Assembly (NCBI RefSeq): GCF_004339595.1
Contig: NZ_SMFU01000007.1
Coordinates: 1,362,658 to 1,426,657 of the forward strand
DNA length: 64,000 bases
Direction of reading: 5' to 3'
Source: Marinobacterium mangrovicola
Lineage (GTDB): Bacteria; Pseudomonadota; Gammaproteobacteria; Pseudomonadales; Balneatricaceae
In this document: positions 27,951-38,750 of the stretch, piece by piece
Layout of the letters: each line of letters starts with the position of its first letter
Numbering within the stretch: the first letter of the stretch is position 1
Position numbers and translations under genes: made by a program
Notes under the pieces: model-generated
Told to the model about the DNA's origin: nothing
Seen by the model: only the letters and a program-made list of their open reading frames with translations
Database searches by the model: none

Positions 27951-28246
27951 GGTACGTACCTCCATTTATGTCATTAACGGATGCTGCAATCCAACACATA
28001 GAGCAACTGCATCACTGGTAACCAGTGTAGTGACCGAAATCGGTTAACACGTTGATCTGAAGCGGGAAAAAGCTTGAAAACCGACACTCTTTTGCAAACG
28101 CTCAGTTGCATAAAATGTATTTGAAACACATCTGCGACATATGTGAGCGGTTCTCACGACAAAATGAGAGAGGCTCAGGGAGTTAGCGGTCGTTTTGCAG
28201 TACAATGTGCGCCCTGAGTTTTAACCGGACCTATGGAAAGCGACAC

Positions 28247-31200
28247 GTGAGCGACACCAATTTGCCAAACACCCTGCGCGCCACTCTGGAAAGCACCCTG
28301 AAAAACCGCATCATGATTCTTGATGGCGGTATGGGCACACAGATTCAGTCACTGGGGCTGGAAGAAGCCGATTACCGTGGCGAACGTTTTGCCGACTGGC
28401 ACCTGGATGTAAAGGGTAACAACGACCTGCTGGTGCTCACCCAGCCGACCATGATTCGTGATATCCACCGCCAGTATCTCGAAGCGGGCGCCGATATCAT
28501 CGAGACCAACACGTTCAACGCCACGCAGATCGCTATGGCGGACTACGAGATGGAATCGCTTTCGCGCGAGATCAACGTGGTGGCCGCGCGTCTGGCAAAA
28601 GAGGCCTGCGCCGAGGTTAGCGCCAAAACAGGTACGCCCCGTTACGTGGCTGGTGTACTGGGCCCAACCAACCGTACCGCCAGTATCTCACCGGATGTGA
28701 ACGACCCGGGCTACCGTAACGTTACCTTCGATGCACTGGTGGAAGCCTACACCGAGTCCGTCGACGGACTGGTCGAGGGTGGCTCCGATATCATCCTGAT
28801 CGAAACTATTTTTGACACCCTGAACGCCAAGGCGGCGATCTTTGCGGTCGAGCAGTACTTCGACGATCACGATATCCGTCTGCCGGTGATGATCTCCGGT
28901 ACCATCACCGACGCGTCCGGCCGTACCCTTTCGGGCCAGACCACCGAAGCGTTCTGGAACTCCATTCGCCACGCAAATCCGATCAGCGTCGGCCTCAACT
29001 GTGCACTCGGTCCGAAGCAGCTGCGTCAGTATGTCGAAGAGCTGTCCCGCGTGGCAGATACCTTTGTATCCGTGCACCCCAACGCGGGTCTGCCCAACGC
29101 CTTCGGTGAATACGATGAAACGCCGGAAGAGATGCGCGACGAGATCCGCGAATGGGCCCAGTCTGGCCTGGTGAACATCGTCGGCGGCTGCTGCGGTACC
29201 ACACCCGAGCATATCCGCGTGATCCGCGAAGGCCTGCTGGATCAGGACCCGCGTGAACTGCCGGAACTGGCGGTTGAGTGCCGCCTGTCCGGTCTGGAGC
29301 CGATGAACATCGGCGCCGACACCCTCTTTGTGAACGTCGGTGAGCGTACCAACGTCACCGGTTCCGCCCGCTTCCGCCGCCTGATCAAGGAAGGCGACTA
29401 CGAGACCGCGCTGGAAGTGGCGCGTCAGCAGGTGGAGAACGGCGCCCAAGTGATCGATATCAACATGGATGAGGGGATGCTCGACGCCATCGCGGCGATG
29501 AACCGTTTCCTCAACCTGATCGCCTCCGAGCCCGATATCTCGCGTGTGCCGGTGATGCTCGACTCCTCCAAGTGGGAAGTGATGGAAGAAGGCCTGAAGC
29601 GTATTCAGGGCAAGGGGGTGGTCAACTCCATCAGCTTGAAAGAAGGCGAAGAGAAGTTTATCGCCCAGGCACGCAAGATCCGCCTTTACGGTGCTGCCGT
29701 GGTCGTAATGGCGTTTGATGAGACCGGCCAGGCCGATACTTACGAGCGCAAGATCGAGATCTGCGAACGCTCCTACCGGGTGCTGGTCGACAAGGTTGGC
29801 TTCCCGCCGGAAGATATCATCTTCGACCCGAACATCTTCGCCATCGCCACCGGTATCGAAGAGCACGACAACTACGCCGTGGACTTCATCAACGCCACCG
29901 GCTGGATCAAGAAGAACCTGCCCTACGCCAAGGTGTCCGGCGGCGTCTCCAACGTGTCGTTCTCCTTCCGCGGCAACGACAAGGTGCGTGAGGCGATCCA
30001 CTGCGTATTCCTCTACCACGCCATCCAGAAAGGGATGGACATGGGTATCGTCAACGCCGGCCAGCTGGCGATTTATGACGACCTGCCGGAAGATCTGCGC
30101 GAACACGTTGAAGATATCGTGCTGAACCGTCGTGAAGACGGTACCGAACGGATGCTGGAGCTGGCCGAGAAATACCGGGGCGGCGCGTCTGAATCCTCCG
30201 TGCAGCAGGATCTGGCGTGGCGCGACTGGCCGGTCAACGAGCGTCTGTCTCACGCCTTGGTCAAGGGCGTGGCCGACTATATCGACGAAGACGTTGAAGA
30301 GTGCCGCCACAACTATGAGCGCCCGCTTCAGGTGATCGAAGGCCCGCTGATGGACGGCATGGGCATCGTCGGCGACCTGTTCGGTTCCGGTAAGATGTTC
30401 CTGCCGCAGGTGGTCAAGTCCGCCCGCGTCATGAAAAAGGCCGTGGCCTACCTGATGCCTTACATCGAGGAAGAGAAAGCAGGCAACGCCAGCAGCTCCG
30501 CCGGTAAGGTGATCATGGCCACCGTTAAGGGCGACGTGCACGATATCGGCAAAAACATCGTCGGCGTGGTGCTGCAGTGTAACAACTTCGAGATCATCGA
30601 CCTGGGCGTCATGGTGCCGGCCGAGAAGATCCTGCAGACCGCCCGTGACGAGAATGCCGATATCATCGGTCTCTCCGGCCTGATCACACCGTCACTGGAT
30701 GAGATGGTCCACGTAGCGAAAGAGATGCAGCGTCAGGGCTTCACCATTCCGCTGATGATCGGTGGCGCCACCACCTCCAAGGCGCACACCGCGGTGAAGA
30801 TCGAGCCGAACTACAAGAACAACCAGGTGGTGCATGTCACCAACGCCTCCCGTTCTGTCGGCGTTGCCTCCGCCCTGCTGTCGGAAACCCGCCGCGAAGC
30901 GTTCGTTACCGAGATTCAGGCCGACTATGCCGCGGTACGTGAGCGTCACGCAGCGCGTCAGAACGACCAGCGCCGGGTAACCATCGAAGCCGCCCGCGAC
31001 AACTGCTTCAAGATCGACTGGGATAACTACACCCCGCCGAAGCCGATGCAGCCAGGCATCCAGGTGTTCGATGACTACGACCTGGAAGAGCTGAGCCACT
31101 ACATCGACTGGACGCCGTTCTTCCAGTCCTGGGAACTGGCCGGCCGCTTCCCGCGCATTCTCGATGATGAGATCGTCGGCGAAGAAGCGCGCAAGCTGTA

Positions 31201-31966
31201 TGAAGACGCCAGGGTGATGCTGCGCGATATCATCGACAACAAGAAGCTCAAGGCCCGTGCCGTCATCGGTCTGTTCCCGGCCAACTCTGTCGGCCACGAC
31301 GATATCGAGCTCTACACCGATGACAGCCGCGATACCGTGAAGATGCGCCTGCATCACCTGCGCCAGCAGATGCAGAAGGTCGAAGGCAAGCCGAACATGT
31401 GCCTCACCGACTTTGTCGCACCGAAAGAGAGCGGCAAAGAGGATTACGTCGGTGCCTTCGCGGTGACCGCCGGCATCGGTATCGACGAGATCGTCGCCGC
31501 GTATGAAGCCGATCACGACGACTACAACTCGATCATGATCAAAGCGCTGGCCGACCGTCTGGCGGAAGCCTTTGCCGAGCGCATGCACGAGCGCGTGCGT
31601 AAAGAGTTCTGGGGCTACGCTGCCGAAGAGAGCTTCGAGAACGACGATCTGATCCGCGAGCGCTACACCGGCATCCGTCCGGCACCGGGTTACCCCGCCT
31701 GTCCGGATCACACCGAGAAGGCACTGCTGTGGGAACTCCTCGACGTGGACAACACCGCTGGCATGACCCTGACCGACAGTTACGCCATGCTGCCGACCGC
31801 CGCGGTCAGCGGCTGGTACTTCAGCCATCCTGACTCCACCTACTTTGGTGTAGCCAAGATCAGCGAAGATCAGGTCGAAAGCTACGCCAAGCGCAAAGGC
31901 ATGAGCATGGATGAAGCCGAACGCTGGCTGGCGCCGAACCTGGGCTACGAGCCGGAACAGGGCTGA
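28247..31966 (+). CDS. metH: Cobalamin-dependent methionine synthase
   Basis: 1239 residues from GTG 28247, supported by GGAAAG seven bases upstream; E. coli MetH is 1227. Domain order is standard. Homocysteine-binding (about 10-335) has zinc cysteines in GLNCALG and GGCCGTT. Pterin-binding follows (about 350-640; [16 protein letters not shown]). The B12 module (about 650-900) has the cobalt-ligand histidine in GDVHDIGKN. The C-terminal AdoMet reactivation domain (about 920-1239) has [15 protein letters not shown]. It methylates homocysteine from 5-methyl-tetrahydrofolate. I saw no cobalamin or SAH riboswitch in the 296-base upstream gap. Confidence 0.97.
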
Positions 31967-34761: not shown

Positions 34762-34778
34762 GATACCGTTTTGGTATC
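34762..34778. promoter_or_regulatory. Perfect 6-5-6 palindrome overlapping the eut promoter
   Basis: GATACC and GGTATC flank GTTTT. Its right arm overlaps the -24 element of the sigma-54-like promoter, so a protein bound here would block RNA polymerase. Candidate repressor site. Confidence 0.4.
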
Positions 34779-34860: not shown

Positions 34861-36297
34861 ATGGTAGCGACATCCGGGTCACAAACTACCCAGAGCCAGG
34901 GCTACAAATATATGTTGGGTAGCCGCACCTATCAGTTCTCTGATCTTAAAGAGCTGATGGCCAAGGCCACTCCCGCCCGTTCCGGTGACCGGCTTGCCGG
35001 TGTCGCCGCCGAATCCGCCGAGGAACGAGCCGTCGCCCAGCGTGTACTCGCCGAGGTACCGCTGAAGCAGTTTTTGCAGGAAGCGCTGATCCCCTACGAA
35101 CAGGACGAGATCACCCGTCTTATCATGGACGATCATAGCGCCGAGGCTTTCGCACCGATCTCTCACCTGACGGTAGGCGACTTTCGGAACTGGCTGCTCA
35201 GCGATGAAGCCAGCAGCGAAGTGCTTACCAGCGTGCGCGACGGTATCACGCCGGAAATGGCTGCTGCGGTAAGCAAGTTAATGCGTAACCAGGACCTGAT
35301 ACTGGTCGCAAAAAAATGCCATGTCGCCAGCGCATTCAGAGACACCATCGGCCTGCCGGGCCACCTTTCCACCCGCATCCAGCCCAATCATCCTACCGAT
35401 GATGCCACCGGTATCGCCGCCAGCATTCTCGATGGCCTGCTCTACGGTAATGGCGATGCGGTGATCGGTATCAACCCGGCAACCGATAACGTCGCCCAGG
35501 CCACCAAACTGATGCAGATGATGGATGCGGTCATTCAGGAATATGAAATTCCGACCCAGTCCTGCGTCCTCACCCATGTAACCAATACGCTTGAAGCGAT
35601 CGAACAAGGCGCTCCCGTGGACCTGGTGTTCCAGTCTATCGGCGGTACTGAAGCCACCAACTCCAGCTTCGGCTTCAATCTCGCCAACCTGGCCGAGGCT
35701 CGCGACGCCGCCCTGTCGCTGAAACGCGGTACCGTGGGCGACAACGTTATGTATTTCGAAACCGGCCAGGGCAGCTCACTGTCGGCCGATGCCCACCATG
35801 GCCTGGACCAGCAGACCTGTGAAGCCCGCGCCTACGCGGTCGCCCGCAAGTTCAAGCCGCTGCTGGTTAATACCGTGGTCGGCTTTATCGGCCCCGAGTA
35901 CCTGTTTGACGGCAAGGAGATCATCCGCGCCGGTCTGGAAGACCATTTCTGCGCCAAACTGCTCGGTCTGCCGATGGGCTGCGACATCTGCTACACCAAC
36001 CACGCCCAGGCCGATCAGAACGATATGGATACCCTGTTGACGCTGCTGGGAGTCGCCGGATGCACGTTCATCATGGGGATCCCCGGCTCCGACGACATCA
36101 TGCTCAATTATCAGACCACCTCCTTCCATGATGCGCTCTACGCTCGCCGCGCTCTGGGCCTGAAACCGGCTCCGGAGTTTGAGCAGTGGCTGACGCGGAT
36201 GCAGATTTTCCAGGACGCCGGTCGCTTCACGCCCAGCGCCGAGCTTCCCGCTTCTTTTGTTAAACCCCTGCAGCGTGCACTGGGAGGCAACCACTGA
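34861..36297 (+). CDS. eutB: Ethanolamine ammonia-lyase large subunit
   Basis: 478 residues, about 25 longer than the E. coli protein because of an N-terminal extension of roughly 18 residues. Adenosylcobalamin-dependent; it splits ethanolamine into acetaldehyde and ammonia together with EutC. Conserved segments match EutB: STRIQPNHPTDD (substrate Arg/Gln region), YFETGQGSSLSADAHHG, VGFIGPEYLFDGKEIIRAGL and CYTNHAQADQND, then GSDDIMLNYQTTSFHD. Its TGA overlaps the eutC ATG by one base. No microcompartment shell genes and no EutA reactivase gene are adjacent, so this is a shell-free form used probably for nitrogen supply. Confidence 0.96.
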   Translation: MVATSGSQTTQSQGYKYMLGSRTYQFSDLKELMAKATPARSGDRLAGVAAESAEERAVAQRVLAEVPLKQFLQEALIPYEQDEITRLIMDDHSAEAFAPISHLTVGDFRNWLLSDEASSEVLTSVRDGITPEMAAAVSKLMRNQDLILVAKKCHVASAFRDTIGLPGHLSTRIQPNHPTDDATGIAASILDGLLYGNGDAVIGINPATDNVAQATKLMQMMDAVIQEYEIPTQSCVLTHVTNTLEAIEQGAPVDLVFQSIGGTEATNSSFGFNLANLAEARDAALSLKRGTVGDNVMYFETGQGSSLSADAHHGLDQQTCEARAYAVARKFKPLLVNTVVGFIGPEYLFDGKEIIRAGLEDHFCAKLLGLPMGCDICYTNHAQADQNDMDTLLTLLGVAGCTFIMGIPGSDDIMLNYQTTSFHDALYARRALGLKPAPEFEQWLTRMQIFQDAGRFTPSAELPASFVKPLQRALGGNH

Positions 36298-37139
36298 TGA
36301 GCCAGACCGATAAGCAGTTCGTCACTCCCAACCCCTGGCAGGCACTGCGCAGCTATACCGATGCACGTATCGGCCTCGGCCGTGCTGGGGTGAGCCTGCC
36401 CACGTCCGAGCTGCTCGACTTTCAGCTCGCCCATGCCCTGGCACAGGACGCGGTGCACCAGCCTCTGGATGTGGCGGCGCTGCTGGAACAGCTTAATCCA
36501 CTGATTTACGACTGCGGGCTTGATCCCTGCCATACGTTGCAGAGCCGGGTACCGGATCGCCCCACCTACCTGCAGCGCCCCGACCTGGGCCGCCGTCTGG
36601 ATGAGAACTCCGCCGAACTGTTACGCCAGTACTCCTTCAGCAACCACCGTGCCTATGACCTGGCGATAGCGGTGGTCGATGGCCTCTCCTCCCGCGCGAT
36701 TGCCGAAAACACCCTGCCGTTTCTCTCAGAACTCTGCGCCTCGCTGAAGGACGATGCCGAAGAGTGGAGCGTGGCACCTTTGAGCATAGTCACCCAGGGC
36801 CGCGTGGCGATCGGAGATGAAATTGGCGATCTGATTAACGCCCGCGCGGTGCTGGTGATGATCGGTGAACGTCCGGGGCTCAGCTCTCCCGACAGCCTGG
36901 GTCTTTACCTGACCTGGGACCCGCGTGTGGGCCTGAACGATGCCCGCCGAAACTGTATTTCCAACGTCCGCAAGGCGGGCCTGGATTACCCCGACGCGGT
37001 ACGCAAGCTGATGTACCTGCTGAAGGAATCACGCCGGATGCAGCTATCCGGTGTGCAGCTGAAAGAGCGCTCCGAAGAGCCGGTGATCGACGGTGCGCAA
37101 ACGCAACAAAACTTTTTGATTTCAGACGTAAAACCCTAA
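36297..37139 (+). CDS. eutC: Ethanolamine ammonia-lyase small subunit
   Basis: 280 residues. It contributes to the cobalamin-binding part of the lyase. EutC-type segments include YTDARIGLGRAGVSLPTSELLDFQLAHALAQDAVH (near residue 20), AIAVVDGLSSRAI and the C-terminal DARRNCISNVRKAGLDYPDA, which matches the family. The start overlaps the eutB stop (TGATG), implying coupled translation at equal amounts. The amt gene follows after 18 bases. Confidence 0.95.
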   Translation: MSQTDKQFVTPNPWQALRSYTDARIGLGRAGVSLPTSELLDFQLAHALAQDAVHQPLDVAALLEQLNPLIYDCGLDPCHTLQSRVPDRPTYLQRPDLGRRLDENSAELLRQYSFSNHRAYDLAIAVVDGLSSRAIAENTLPFLSELCASLKDDAEEWSVAPLSIVTQGRVAIGDEIGDLINARAVLVMIGERPGLSSPDSLGLYLTWDPRVGLNDARRNCISNVRKAGLDYPDAVRKLMYLLKESRRMQLSGVQLKERSEEPVIDGAQTQQNFLISDVKP

Positions 37140-37157
37140 AAAACCGAGGACAGTACT

Positions 37158-38525
37158 ATGGATGAAACTCCAACCCTGCAGTCGTTGCAGGCTGCTCTTG
37201 ATGCCCAGCAAGCGGTATTCGAGATGCACCAGTCAATGAACGTCGAGGTGTTCTATTGGTGGTGCACCGCGATCATGATCATGATCCACGCGGGCTTCCT
37301 GGCTTATGAAATGGGTGCTTCGCGCAGCAAGAACGCGCTGGCCGCCGGTATCAAAAACATTCTCGCCCTCGCGGTGATTATTCCGACCTTCTACCTGTTT
37401 GGCTGGTGGATCTACAACGCGATGCCGAACGGTCTGATCCCGATCGACGCCTCTTTCGCCCTGCCCTGGTCGCAGAGCATGGGTCCGGACGTTCAGGATA
37501 TGGGTAGCGGTATCTTCTGGGCGGCCTTTGCGCTGTTCGGTGCCACCACAGGTTCGATCCTGTCCGGTGCGGTTATCGAACGTATCCGCGTCAGCTCCTT
37601 CCTGATTCTTACCATCGTGCTCGGTAGCGGCGCCTGGATTCTGGCCGGTGCCTGGGGCTGGCATCCGGACGGCTGGCTGCTGACCAAAATGGGCTACCAT
37701 GATCTCGGCGCGTCCGGTGTCGTTCACGCCGTTGCCGGCTTCTTCACCCTGGGTGTTTTGATGAACCTCGGCGCCCGTAAAGGCAAGTTCATCAACGGCG
37801 TCGCACAGACCATTGCTCCGCACAGTCTGCCGATGACCCTGATCGGTCTGATGATGATCATCTTCGGCTTCTTCGGCTTCCTCGGTGGCTGCATCATCTT
37901 CAACGGCGGTGAAACCGGCTGGACCACCATCTACGGTAACCCGACCAACCTGTCTGCCTTCGCCTTCAACACCCTGATGGGCTTTGCCGGCGGTATCATC
38001 GGCTGCTACGTCGCCACTCGCGATCCGTTCTGGACCATGTCCGGCGGCCTGGTCGGCATCATCTCCGTCGCTGCGGGTCTCGACCTGTACGATCCGGCGC
38101 TGGCCTTCATCATCGCTACCTGCATGGGTCTGCTGGCAGTATGGTTCGCCAAGTTCCTGGAAAACCGCGGTATCGATGACGCCGTTGGCGCTGTTGCGGT
38201 ACACGGCTTCACCGGTTTCGTTGCTGTTGTGCTGGTGGGCGTTTTCGCTGGCGGTACTCCGAACGTAGGCGACCTGCCTGCTATCAGCTTCGTCGGTCAG
38301 CTGACCGGTGCGGTTGTGATGGTACTGCTGGGCTTCATCCCGGGCTACGCGGTATCCGCTGCCCTGAAAGCCGCCAACATGCTGCGTGTACCGGAGAAAG
38401 CGGAAGTAATCGGTATCGACGAAGTCGAACTGATCGCCAAGCCTTACCCGGAATCCTCCACTCCGGCATCCGTGCCGAGCGAGGTTCCTAACAAACTGGC
38501 TAACACCGAGCCGCAAGGAGTCTAA
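37158..38525 (+). CDS. amt: Ammonium channel (Amt family), third gene of the eut operon
   Basis: 455 residues with about 11 membrane helices. Residues that line the NH3 path in E. coli AmtB can be aligned by eye: the F107 position (ALFGATTG), twin histidines in SGVVHAVAG and VAVHGFTGF, and F215 in GFFGFLGG. The substrate-side aspartate is kept (HDLGASGVVH), in a form closer to plant AMT1 than to AmtB. The C-terminal tail is cytoplasmic and rich in Pro and Ser. GAGGACAG precedes the ATG. Its place right after eutBC suggests that it retains or recovers ammonia released by the lyase. No glnK is adjacent. Confidence 0.92.
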   Translation: MDETPTLQSLQAALDAQQAVFEMHQSMNVEVFYWWCTAIMIMIHAGFLAYEMGASRSKNALAAGIKNILALAVIIPTFYLFGWWIYNAMPNGLIPIDASFALPWSQSMGPDVQDMGSGIFWAAFALFGATTGSILSGAVIERIRVSSFLILTIVLGSGAWILAGAWGWHPDGWLLTKMGYHDLGASGVVHAVAGFFTLGVLMNLGARKGKFINGVAQTIAPHSLPMTLIGLMMIIFGFFGFLGGCIIFNGGETGWTTIYGNPTNLSAFAFNTLMGFAGGIIGCYVATRDPFWTMSGGLVGIISVAAGLDLYDPALAFIIATCMGLLAVWFAKFLENRGIDDAVGAVAVHGFTGFVAVVLVGVFAGGTPNVGDLPAISFVGQLTGAVVMVLLGFIPGYAVSAALKAANMLRVPEKAEVIGIDEVELIAKPYPESSTPASVPSEVPNKLANTEPQGV

Positions 38526-38527
38526 TC

Positions 38528-38692
38528 ATGGGTACATCAATTACCAGCTGGGAAAATGTAAGCGCCTATTTCACCTTTGCTGACAACCCGATGGCACTGG
38601 TCCTGTTTGCGGTCGGCGTGGTTGGCATCGTTGGCGGCCTGATCGGCTCCATCGTGAAGCACGAAAACGAGGCATTCGAAGCACACAAGTGA
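38528..38692 (+). CDS. 54-residue single-helix membrane protein at the end of the eut operon
   Basis: Short gene starting two bases after the amt stop: MGTSITSWENVSAYFTFADN, then one hydrophobic helix (about residues 21-44, glycine- and valine-rich, LVLFAVGVVGIVGGLIGSIV) and a charged tail ending EAHK. The upstream bases AAGGAGTC inside the end of amt make a strong ribosome-binding site. The intact frame, RBS and following terminator make a real gene likely. I do not recognise a family. A small partner of the Amt channel is a natural hypothesis; the alternative is an unrelated membrane peptide that only shares the transcript. Confidence 0.8.
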   Translation: MGTSITSWENVSAYFTFADNPMALVLFAVGVVGIVGGLIGSIVKHENEAFEAHK

Positions 38693-38720
38693 TCGAATAA
38701 CGCCAGCGTAAGTAGTCATA

Positions 38721-38750
38721 AAGCCGCGCCTTCGGGTCGCGGCTTTTTTT
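38721..38750 (+). terminator. Rho-independent terminator of the eut operon
   Basis: GCCGCG (38723-38728) and CGCGGC (38738-38743) enclose a CTTCGG-type loop region, followed by TTTTTTT. It lies about 30 bases after the small membrane-protein gene. Confidence 0.9.

Follow-up and report, generated by a model that had tools for sequence, protein, structure and literature searches.

A divergent Amt-family protein and its small membrane partner as a proposed importer of ethanolamine and other small amines in Marinobacterium mangrovicola

How does ethanolamine enter a bacterium whose lyase operon includes no known ethanolamine permease? The question is raised by a 64,000-nucleotide stretch of the Marinobacterium mangrovicola genome (contig NZ_SMFU01000007.1, positions 1,362,658 to 1,426,657 of the forward strand), here called the window, in which the lyase subunit genes eutB and eutC are followed by amt, encoding a member of the Amt family of ammonium transporters, and by a gene for a 54-residue single-helix membrane protein, here called the small gene. 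eutB and eutC overlap by 1 base, and gaps of 18 and 2 bases separate eutC from amt and amt from the small gene, just as an initial annotation of this DNA had it. Both lyase subunits exceed curated Pfam and NCBIfam cut-offs. The order eutB-eutC-amt-small gene is found in 23 of 80 homologous loci, one of them (L029) with eutBC as a single open reading frame (ORF); these are the best 80 of 189 places with Amt relatives that were found by scanning one genome for each species, and all counts of loci refer to them. The shell-free eutBC module with Amt and a small membrane protein is thus conserved and is not confined to a single genome, which would have told against the initial reading. We conclude that the four genes form a real operon, whose recurrence goes beyond chance.

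The Amt was initially read as a channel for retaining the ammonia that EutBC releases. Our comparisons of sequence suggest that the Amt and the 54-residue protein are instead probably a two-component importer of small organic amines, ethanolamine in the case of this operon. EutBC needs intracellular ethanolamine, and the host genome (completeness 99.64%) has no match to the permeases Eat (TIGR00908, at E ≤ 1e-100) or EutH (PF04346); the Amt and its partner are the sole candidate carrier in the operon. The operon itself lacks a permease, the reactivase EutA, an aldehyde dehydrogenase and any shell gene, in agreement with the initial annotation (no search for the aldehyde dehydrogenase was made in the rest of the genome), and the permease whose absence was then remarked upon is probably the Amt itself. 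Microcompartment shell proteins (PF00936) have no match anywhere in the host genome, and a search for EutA returned two short stretches of 43-44 residues at profile positions 139-182 of 475, scoring 28.6 and 31.2 bits with their neighbours included (cut-off 27).

The divergent Amt and its small partner

Scoring 179.9 bits against PF00909 (cut-off 23.2), the window Amt belongs to the Amt/Mep/Rh superfamily, and it lies below the NCBIfam cut-offs for ammonium transporters (TIGR00836, 187.9 versus 343.3 bits; TIGR03644, 161.5 versus 514; PRK10666, 42 versus 657). The host genome has six Amt genes. The other five, three of them ordinary frames (409-424 amino acids) and two long (724 and 1175), score 319-361 bits against PF00909, compared with 180 for the window Amt, and Amts of the window type share 25-30% identity with seven other Amts. 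A quick tree splits 89 rows, comprising the subfamily and its distant relatives, from six others with an SH-aLRT of 100, the outgroup branches being very long; the long Amt L111 was omitted from the tree and retained in the residue count below. The 80 loci come mostly from Gamma- and Alphaproteobacteria. An AlphaFold2 model of the window Amt (pLDDT 86.5, pTM 0.87) has the Amt fold, and its eight best Foldseek matches are all Amts (TMt 0.79-0.86), the nearest solved structures being the sensor/receptor Amts 8qj3 and 6eu6, followed by AmtB. The window Amt has in common with Amt/Mep/Rh proteins such as Escherichia coli AmtB and the sensor Amts 8qj3 (Sd-Amt1) and 6eu6 the fold, the twin histidines, the Phe gate, W148 and D160; it differs from them in the replacement of F103 and S219, in its paired small gene and in being encoded in an amine-catabolism operon instead of with glnK. 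From these sequence-based comparisons, we assign it to a distinct, divergent subfamily of the superfamily.

To describe the pore, 85 rows (the window protein, the 80 loci and four plasmid records) were mapped onto E. coli AmtB, with residue numbers as we take them to stand in that protein. All 85 keep F107, W148, D160, H168, F215 and H318, so that the twin histidines and the Phe gate are intact; in the window protein's own numbering, the pore phenylalanines F127 and F241 and the histidines H190 and H349 are all present, as first annotated. Replacements are equally uniform: F103 to Ala, Q104 to Phe and S219 to Cys in 85 of 85 rows, and W212 to Phe and N216 to Leu in 84 each. The comparison Amts (five paralogues, one from Phaeobacter, and AmtB) retain F103, W212, N216 and S219 in 7 of 7 cases. 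F103 is presumably a residue lining the Amt entrance. The ammonium site S1 of AmtB is delineated by S219, W148 and F107 (PMC10433425; this and the other papers cited are drawn upon from excerpts of their text). The canonical S1 site is not found in the subfamily, where S219 and F103 are replaced though W148 and F107 stay. With the pore residues kept and S1 and F103 altered, the conduction path has thus been retained and the substrate entrance rewritten.

In all 80 loci, an ORF of 52-80 codons with a hydrophobic stretch lies 3' of the Amt gene on the same strand. A family profile, to which about 29 of the loci contributed, finds the small gene downstream of the Amt in 80 of 80 and never upstream or antisense (within 450 bases), and a profile built from ten eut-type rows only still recovers it in 79, missing L092; on these grounds a chance ORF was rejected. 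The consensus of the small protein reads SPITSWEGxxAYFTFADxP, a helix, and HExxAF, and from its charges the N-terminus is probably outside. At L094, where the Amt reads through into the small protein, the model of the fusion shows the latter as a helix with a pLDDT of about 90 at residues 491-510.

A profile search of the whole host genome found one copy of the small gene, adjoining the window Amt; four of the five other Amts have no such ORF after them, and the fifth reaches the end of the stretch examined. The Amt (E ≤ 1e-60) is present in 17 of 293 genomes belonging to the order. The small-gene profile has 17 matches in the same genomes, of which 16 are strong, and all 16 directly adjoin a subfamily Amt; the remaining match, weak (E 5e-4) and within a 497-residue frame, was taken as noise. 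This strict linkage argues for a subunit. The 17th genome with the Amt (G087, 46% identity) has in the small-gene position a different one-helix protein of 70-78 residues, and proteins of the same description follow the distant Amts of L108 and L109 and the second Amts of L074 and L080. Homology of these proteins to the 54-residue family finds no support (best E 1.6), the likeness being confined to position, length and outline. Tandem Amts occur at L069 (7959-11607), with a small gene after both, and at L074 (7929-11354), where the second (45%) is of the distant type and has the other type of small protein.

The window small protein has no match in Pfam or NCBIfam, and its best match in PHROGs has an E value of 0.043. 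When 34 family members were compared with Pfam and NCBIfam, matches to DUF3185 (four members, best E 0.0021), DUF3309 and MscL (one member each) were obtained and judged to be chance. Small subunits of transporters are known, MetS being one. As portrayed in excerpts of the literature, AcrZ is likewise a small membrane protein belonging to a transporter, from which the window protein differs in its lack of Pfam or NCBIfam kinship.

Amine loci and exchange with the permease Eat

Labels for neighbouring genes come from BLAST matches to references that owe their names to NCBIfam or to the annotation of their records. An amine context is evident in 63 of the 80 loci, 33 with eutB and 30 with methylated-amine genes and no eutB. 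Besides the loci with the exact four-gene order, the eut loci comprise six with amt and the small gene just upstream of eutBC, one (L060) with Eat in between and three (L051, L054 and L064) in which they lie apart; L057, where the contig ends within eutB, is not counted among the 33. A gene for an EutR-like regulator is present in 26 eut loci, and nine additionally hold methylated-amine genes. The loci without eutB carry genes for trimethylamine (tmm, tdm), dimethylamine (dmm) or monomethylamine (gmaS, mgs). Plasmids provide further instances: in Thioclava, a Tdm-like DUF1989 protein, the Amt, the small gene, an aminomethyltransferase, and DmmA with its partners; in Ponticoccus and Ruegeria, dmm genes, the Amt, the small gene, glutamate-synthase-like genes and glnT. 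The plasmid record L104 has no clear amine gene. Plasmid Amts L108 and L109, in dmm-mgs-gmaS clusters, carry Ala and Cys at the F103 and S219 positions. Genes named amt or amtB have been reported inside tmm-dmm-gmaS clusters of roseobacters and their relatives, as ammonium or ammonia transporters (PMC5520151, PMC4744692, PMC7574528). These are possibly of the same Amt type as that of the window; the excerpts mention neither a small partner nor amine import.

Several loci have features of their own. Four of these, L041, L045, L097 and L095, belong to the 17 in which no amine gene was recognised by the labels. L041, L045 (3809-7995) and L097 have a common gene set directly upstream of amt and the small gene, which in L045 consists of a glutamine-synthetase family gene, a PhyH dioxygenase and a class-I GATase and may represent a gamma-glutamyl pathway for some amine. 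At L095 (4222-6987), a glutamine-synthetase-like gene and a cytochrome P450 precede the pair, possibly another amine route. The single eutBC frame of L029 (5673-7997, Methylophaga) has 774 residues matching EutB and EutC and is a possible eutB-eutC fusion. In Oceanobacter (L049, L050, L052 and L055), an Amt of another kind (29-31% identity) is encoded about 2-4.5 kb downstream of amt and the small gene; in L050 and L052, this second Amt lies beyond eutBC.

The eut loci permit a comparison with Eat, which belongs, as does EutH, to a different protein family from the window Amt by curated models, and which in related genomes stands next to eutBC in the position that the Amt has here, its job being presumed the same. 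EutB is present in 77 of the 293 genomes of the order, nine of them with the Amt less than 3 kb away. Eat or EutH is found anywhere in none of these nine genomes and in 43 of the other 68 (Fisher p 3e-4, kinship ignored); this count leaves out four TIGR00908 matches below the cut-off, found singly in G095, G306, G229 and G162. In Marinomonas, 42 of 48 genomes have EutB, and within 6 kb of eutB there is Eat in 28, the Amt with the small gene in nine, both in one and neither in four (p 1.4e-5, kinship uncorrected). The gene maps read EutR, eutB, eutC and then either Eat (26 genomes) or Amt and small gene (seven); on the other side of eutBC, Eat is found in two genomes and the Amt pair in two. 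The Marinomonas operon L182 (same record as L060), with Eat and the Amt pair both after eutBC, may represent a stage midway in the exchange of the permease. Two of the four genomes with neither (G355 and G321) have a subfamily Amt elsewhere, in the trimethyl-/dimethylamine loci L075 and L081. The EutBC tree shows four changes of the Amt state, at least three of them on well-supported branches, or five when the genome that has both is included. The same exchange between relatives is seen in two more families (L156 versus L157; L158 and L159 versus L160). The presence of the pair in methylated-amine loci without eutB, together with its replacement of Eat within Marinomonas, therefore points to amine import.

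Other eutBC genes lie beside TRAP transporter genes, at L132 (6574-9544; DctP, DctQ and DctM by Pfam) and L136 (1391-4413; DctM checked), and a TRAP-like set, judged from gene sizes, is next to eutBC at L137. Such a set is possibly a further kind of ethanolamine carrier.

Proposed function and its alternatives

The gene order, its conservation, the rewritten entrance, the strict pairing, the association with amine catabolism and the exchange with Eat are observed, and any account of the Amt has to accommodate them. Ethanolamine and the methylamines are weak bases, like ammonium, and are mostly protonated in sea water. The scheme that we infer, from its substrate, direction and mechanism to the pore width and the physical association of the Amt with the small protein, would be as follows. 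A protonated amine would dock in a periplasmic entrance widened by the changes at F103, S219, W212 and N216, where W148, F107 and D160 are retained. There it would give up its proton, and the neutral amine would pass along the hydrophobic pore, through the Phe gate and by the twin histidines, the proton following the relay of histidines that has been put forward for AmtB; such a passage would call chiefly for more room in the entrance and the pore. Imported ethanolamine would then be split by EutBC to acetaldehyde and ammonia, the latter used for nitrogen, and the small protein would serve as an obligate subunit in assembly, gating or substrate choice. With somewhat less assurance, we also favour a broader proposal, that the pair adds another kind of ethanolamine transporter to Eat and EutH and gives many proteobacteria a route of methylated-amine uptake.

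Several points weigh against amine import. By the labels used, 17 of the 80 loci have no recognised amine gene. The Marinobacterium loci L051, L054, L057 and L064 hold both the Amt pair and Eat, with Tdm directly upstream there. Among the 77 EutB genomes, 22 have neither a subfamily Amt nor an above-cut-off Eat or EutH (G162 has a sub-cut-off Eat relative, and in three the TRAP genes described above, confirmed or likely, adjoin eutBC), and a known permease is therefore not obligatory; ethanolamine is also able to enter by diffusion (PMC9397018). The Fisher p values for the exclusion of Amt and Eat ignore kinship, and a kinship-corrected sign test of the swap, with three pairs only, is not significant. 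Evidence for the swap is limited to eut loci, there being none for methylamine loci, where it was not looked for. Two Ruegeria papers lend no support, the term 'amt' being missing from their text (PMC13390433 and PMC10130141, the latter a transporter-mutant screen). Finally, with the twin histidines, the Phe gate, W148 and D160 kept, the Amt may well conduct ammonium, and the S219A variant of E. coli AmtB has higher, not lower, uptake of ammonium and methylammonium (PMC10433425).

The retained fold and conduction residues would also suit a channel for the recapture (or venting) of ammonia set free by EutBC and, in the other loci, by methylamine breakdown. Ethanolamine and methylamine breakdown both yield ammonia in the end, by established biochemistry, and the plasmid records label the Amt as an ammonium transporter. 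We nevertheless consider this reading, which includes the ammonia retention of the initial annotation, unlikely: S219 and F103 are substituted in every row, the host has five other Amts, and a recapture channel would not be expected to share one slot with Eat in a mutually exclusive way. Moreover, many loci have tmm, tdm or dmm as the genes nearest to the pair, and these steps themselves release no ammonia (established biochemistry); the pair occurs in methylated-amine loci without eutB, and it takes the place of an ethanolamine permease within Marinomonas. The nitrogen-scavenging module first envisaged is thus upheld as a conserved unit, but its built-in part is more likely an amine importer than a channel for ammonia retention.

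If the Amt is an importer as proposed, the small gene could still encode a separate membrane peptide that accompanies amt without being a subunit. We regard this as improbable. The model of the Amt-small protein fusion reports no contacts, but the pairing is complete in the 80 loci, no strong match apart from a subfamily Amt was found in the 293 genomes, and a one-helix protein of different sequence follows each of five distant Amt relatives. Least probable is that the Amt and small protein are an amine sensor or transceptor controlling the adjacent operon rather than a carrier, for although the solved structures nearest to the Amt in sequence and fold are those of sensor/receptor Amts and EutR-like genes are frequent in eut loci, Pfam and NCBIfam searches found no additional signalling domain in either protein, Eat takes the Amt's place, and EutR-like genes accompany the Eat and Amt arrangements alike.

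Operon signals, known systems and significance

The features of the operon are collected in Table 1. A single terminator had been predicted after the four genes. Folding supports it, a hairpin with a U tract being found for which 7 of 200 shuffles fold equally well; a strict terminator scan of the operon lists no terminator at all and thus passes over this hairpin, probably on account of a bulge in the stem. A sigma-70 promoter scan of the operon gave one match (2.1 expected), and an Rfam search of the window gave none. No EutR-like gene is present among the family-tested neighbours of the window operon, a gene that most eut loci have. Judged by eye, a large ORF at 28205-31966, some 3 kb upstream of eutB, appears to encode a B12-dependent methionine synthase and so would add a second cobalamin enzyme.

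Table 1. Features of the ethanolamine operon and its flanks (window coordinates)
Feature	Position	Strand	Basis
eutB	34861-36297	+	PF06751, 739.9 bits; NF011649, 738.2 bits (cut-off 554)
eutC	36297-37139	+	PF05985, 299.3 bits; NF003971, 330 bits (cut-off 230)
amt, 455-aa transporter of the divergent Amt subfamily, proposed importer of ethanolamine/amines	37158-38525	+	PF00909, fold, entrance residues
Small gene, 54-aa single-helix membrane protein, proposed importer subunit	38528-38692	+	Pairing with amt
Hairpin and U tract, probable intrinsic terminator	38720-38750	+	Fold z -2.1
Perfect inverted repeat GATACC-N5-GGTATC, candidate operator, 5' of eutB	34762-34778	unstranded	Read by eye

Some related systems are known. 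Shell-free, EutA-independent catabolism by eutBC, with ethanolamine as a nitrogen source, has been reported in Acinetobacter (PMC9426561); the operon described there is ald1-eutH-eutB-eutC and, unlike that of the window, has no Amt or small gene in the excerpts of that paper. The named routes of ethanolamine entry are EutH, Eat and diffusion (PMC9397018, PMC3542024). Import of a small amine in a marine bacterium is likewise the task of TmaT, a Na+/trimethylamine symporter of the BCCT family (PMC11708041), which belongs to another family and for which the excerpts mention no small subunit. Amt/Mep proteins carry methylammonium as an analogue of ammonium (PMC10433425). Searches of the open-access literature, read in excerpts, brought up no proposal of an Amt protein as the carrier that brings ethanolamine or methylated amines into the cell in these pathways, nor of a small subunit of an Amt.

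Methylated amines are abundant in marine dissolved organic nitrogen and feed aerosol formation (PMC13390433, PMC5520151), and in one model marine bacterium knockout-verified importers amounted to only 4 of 126 putative organic ones before 2023 (PMC10130141). If the proposal is true, many annotations as 'ammonium transporter' mislead, and the F103A/S219C entrance would offer a direct handle on the ammonium selectivity of Amt proteins. The Amt superfamily would gain organic amines as physiological substrates, together with a dedicated small subunit, and confirmation at the bench would establish a new route by which cells take up ethanolamine and related small amines.

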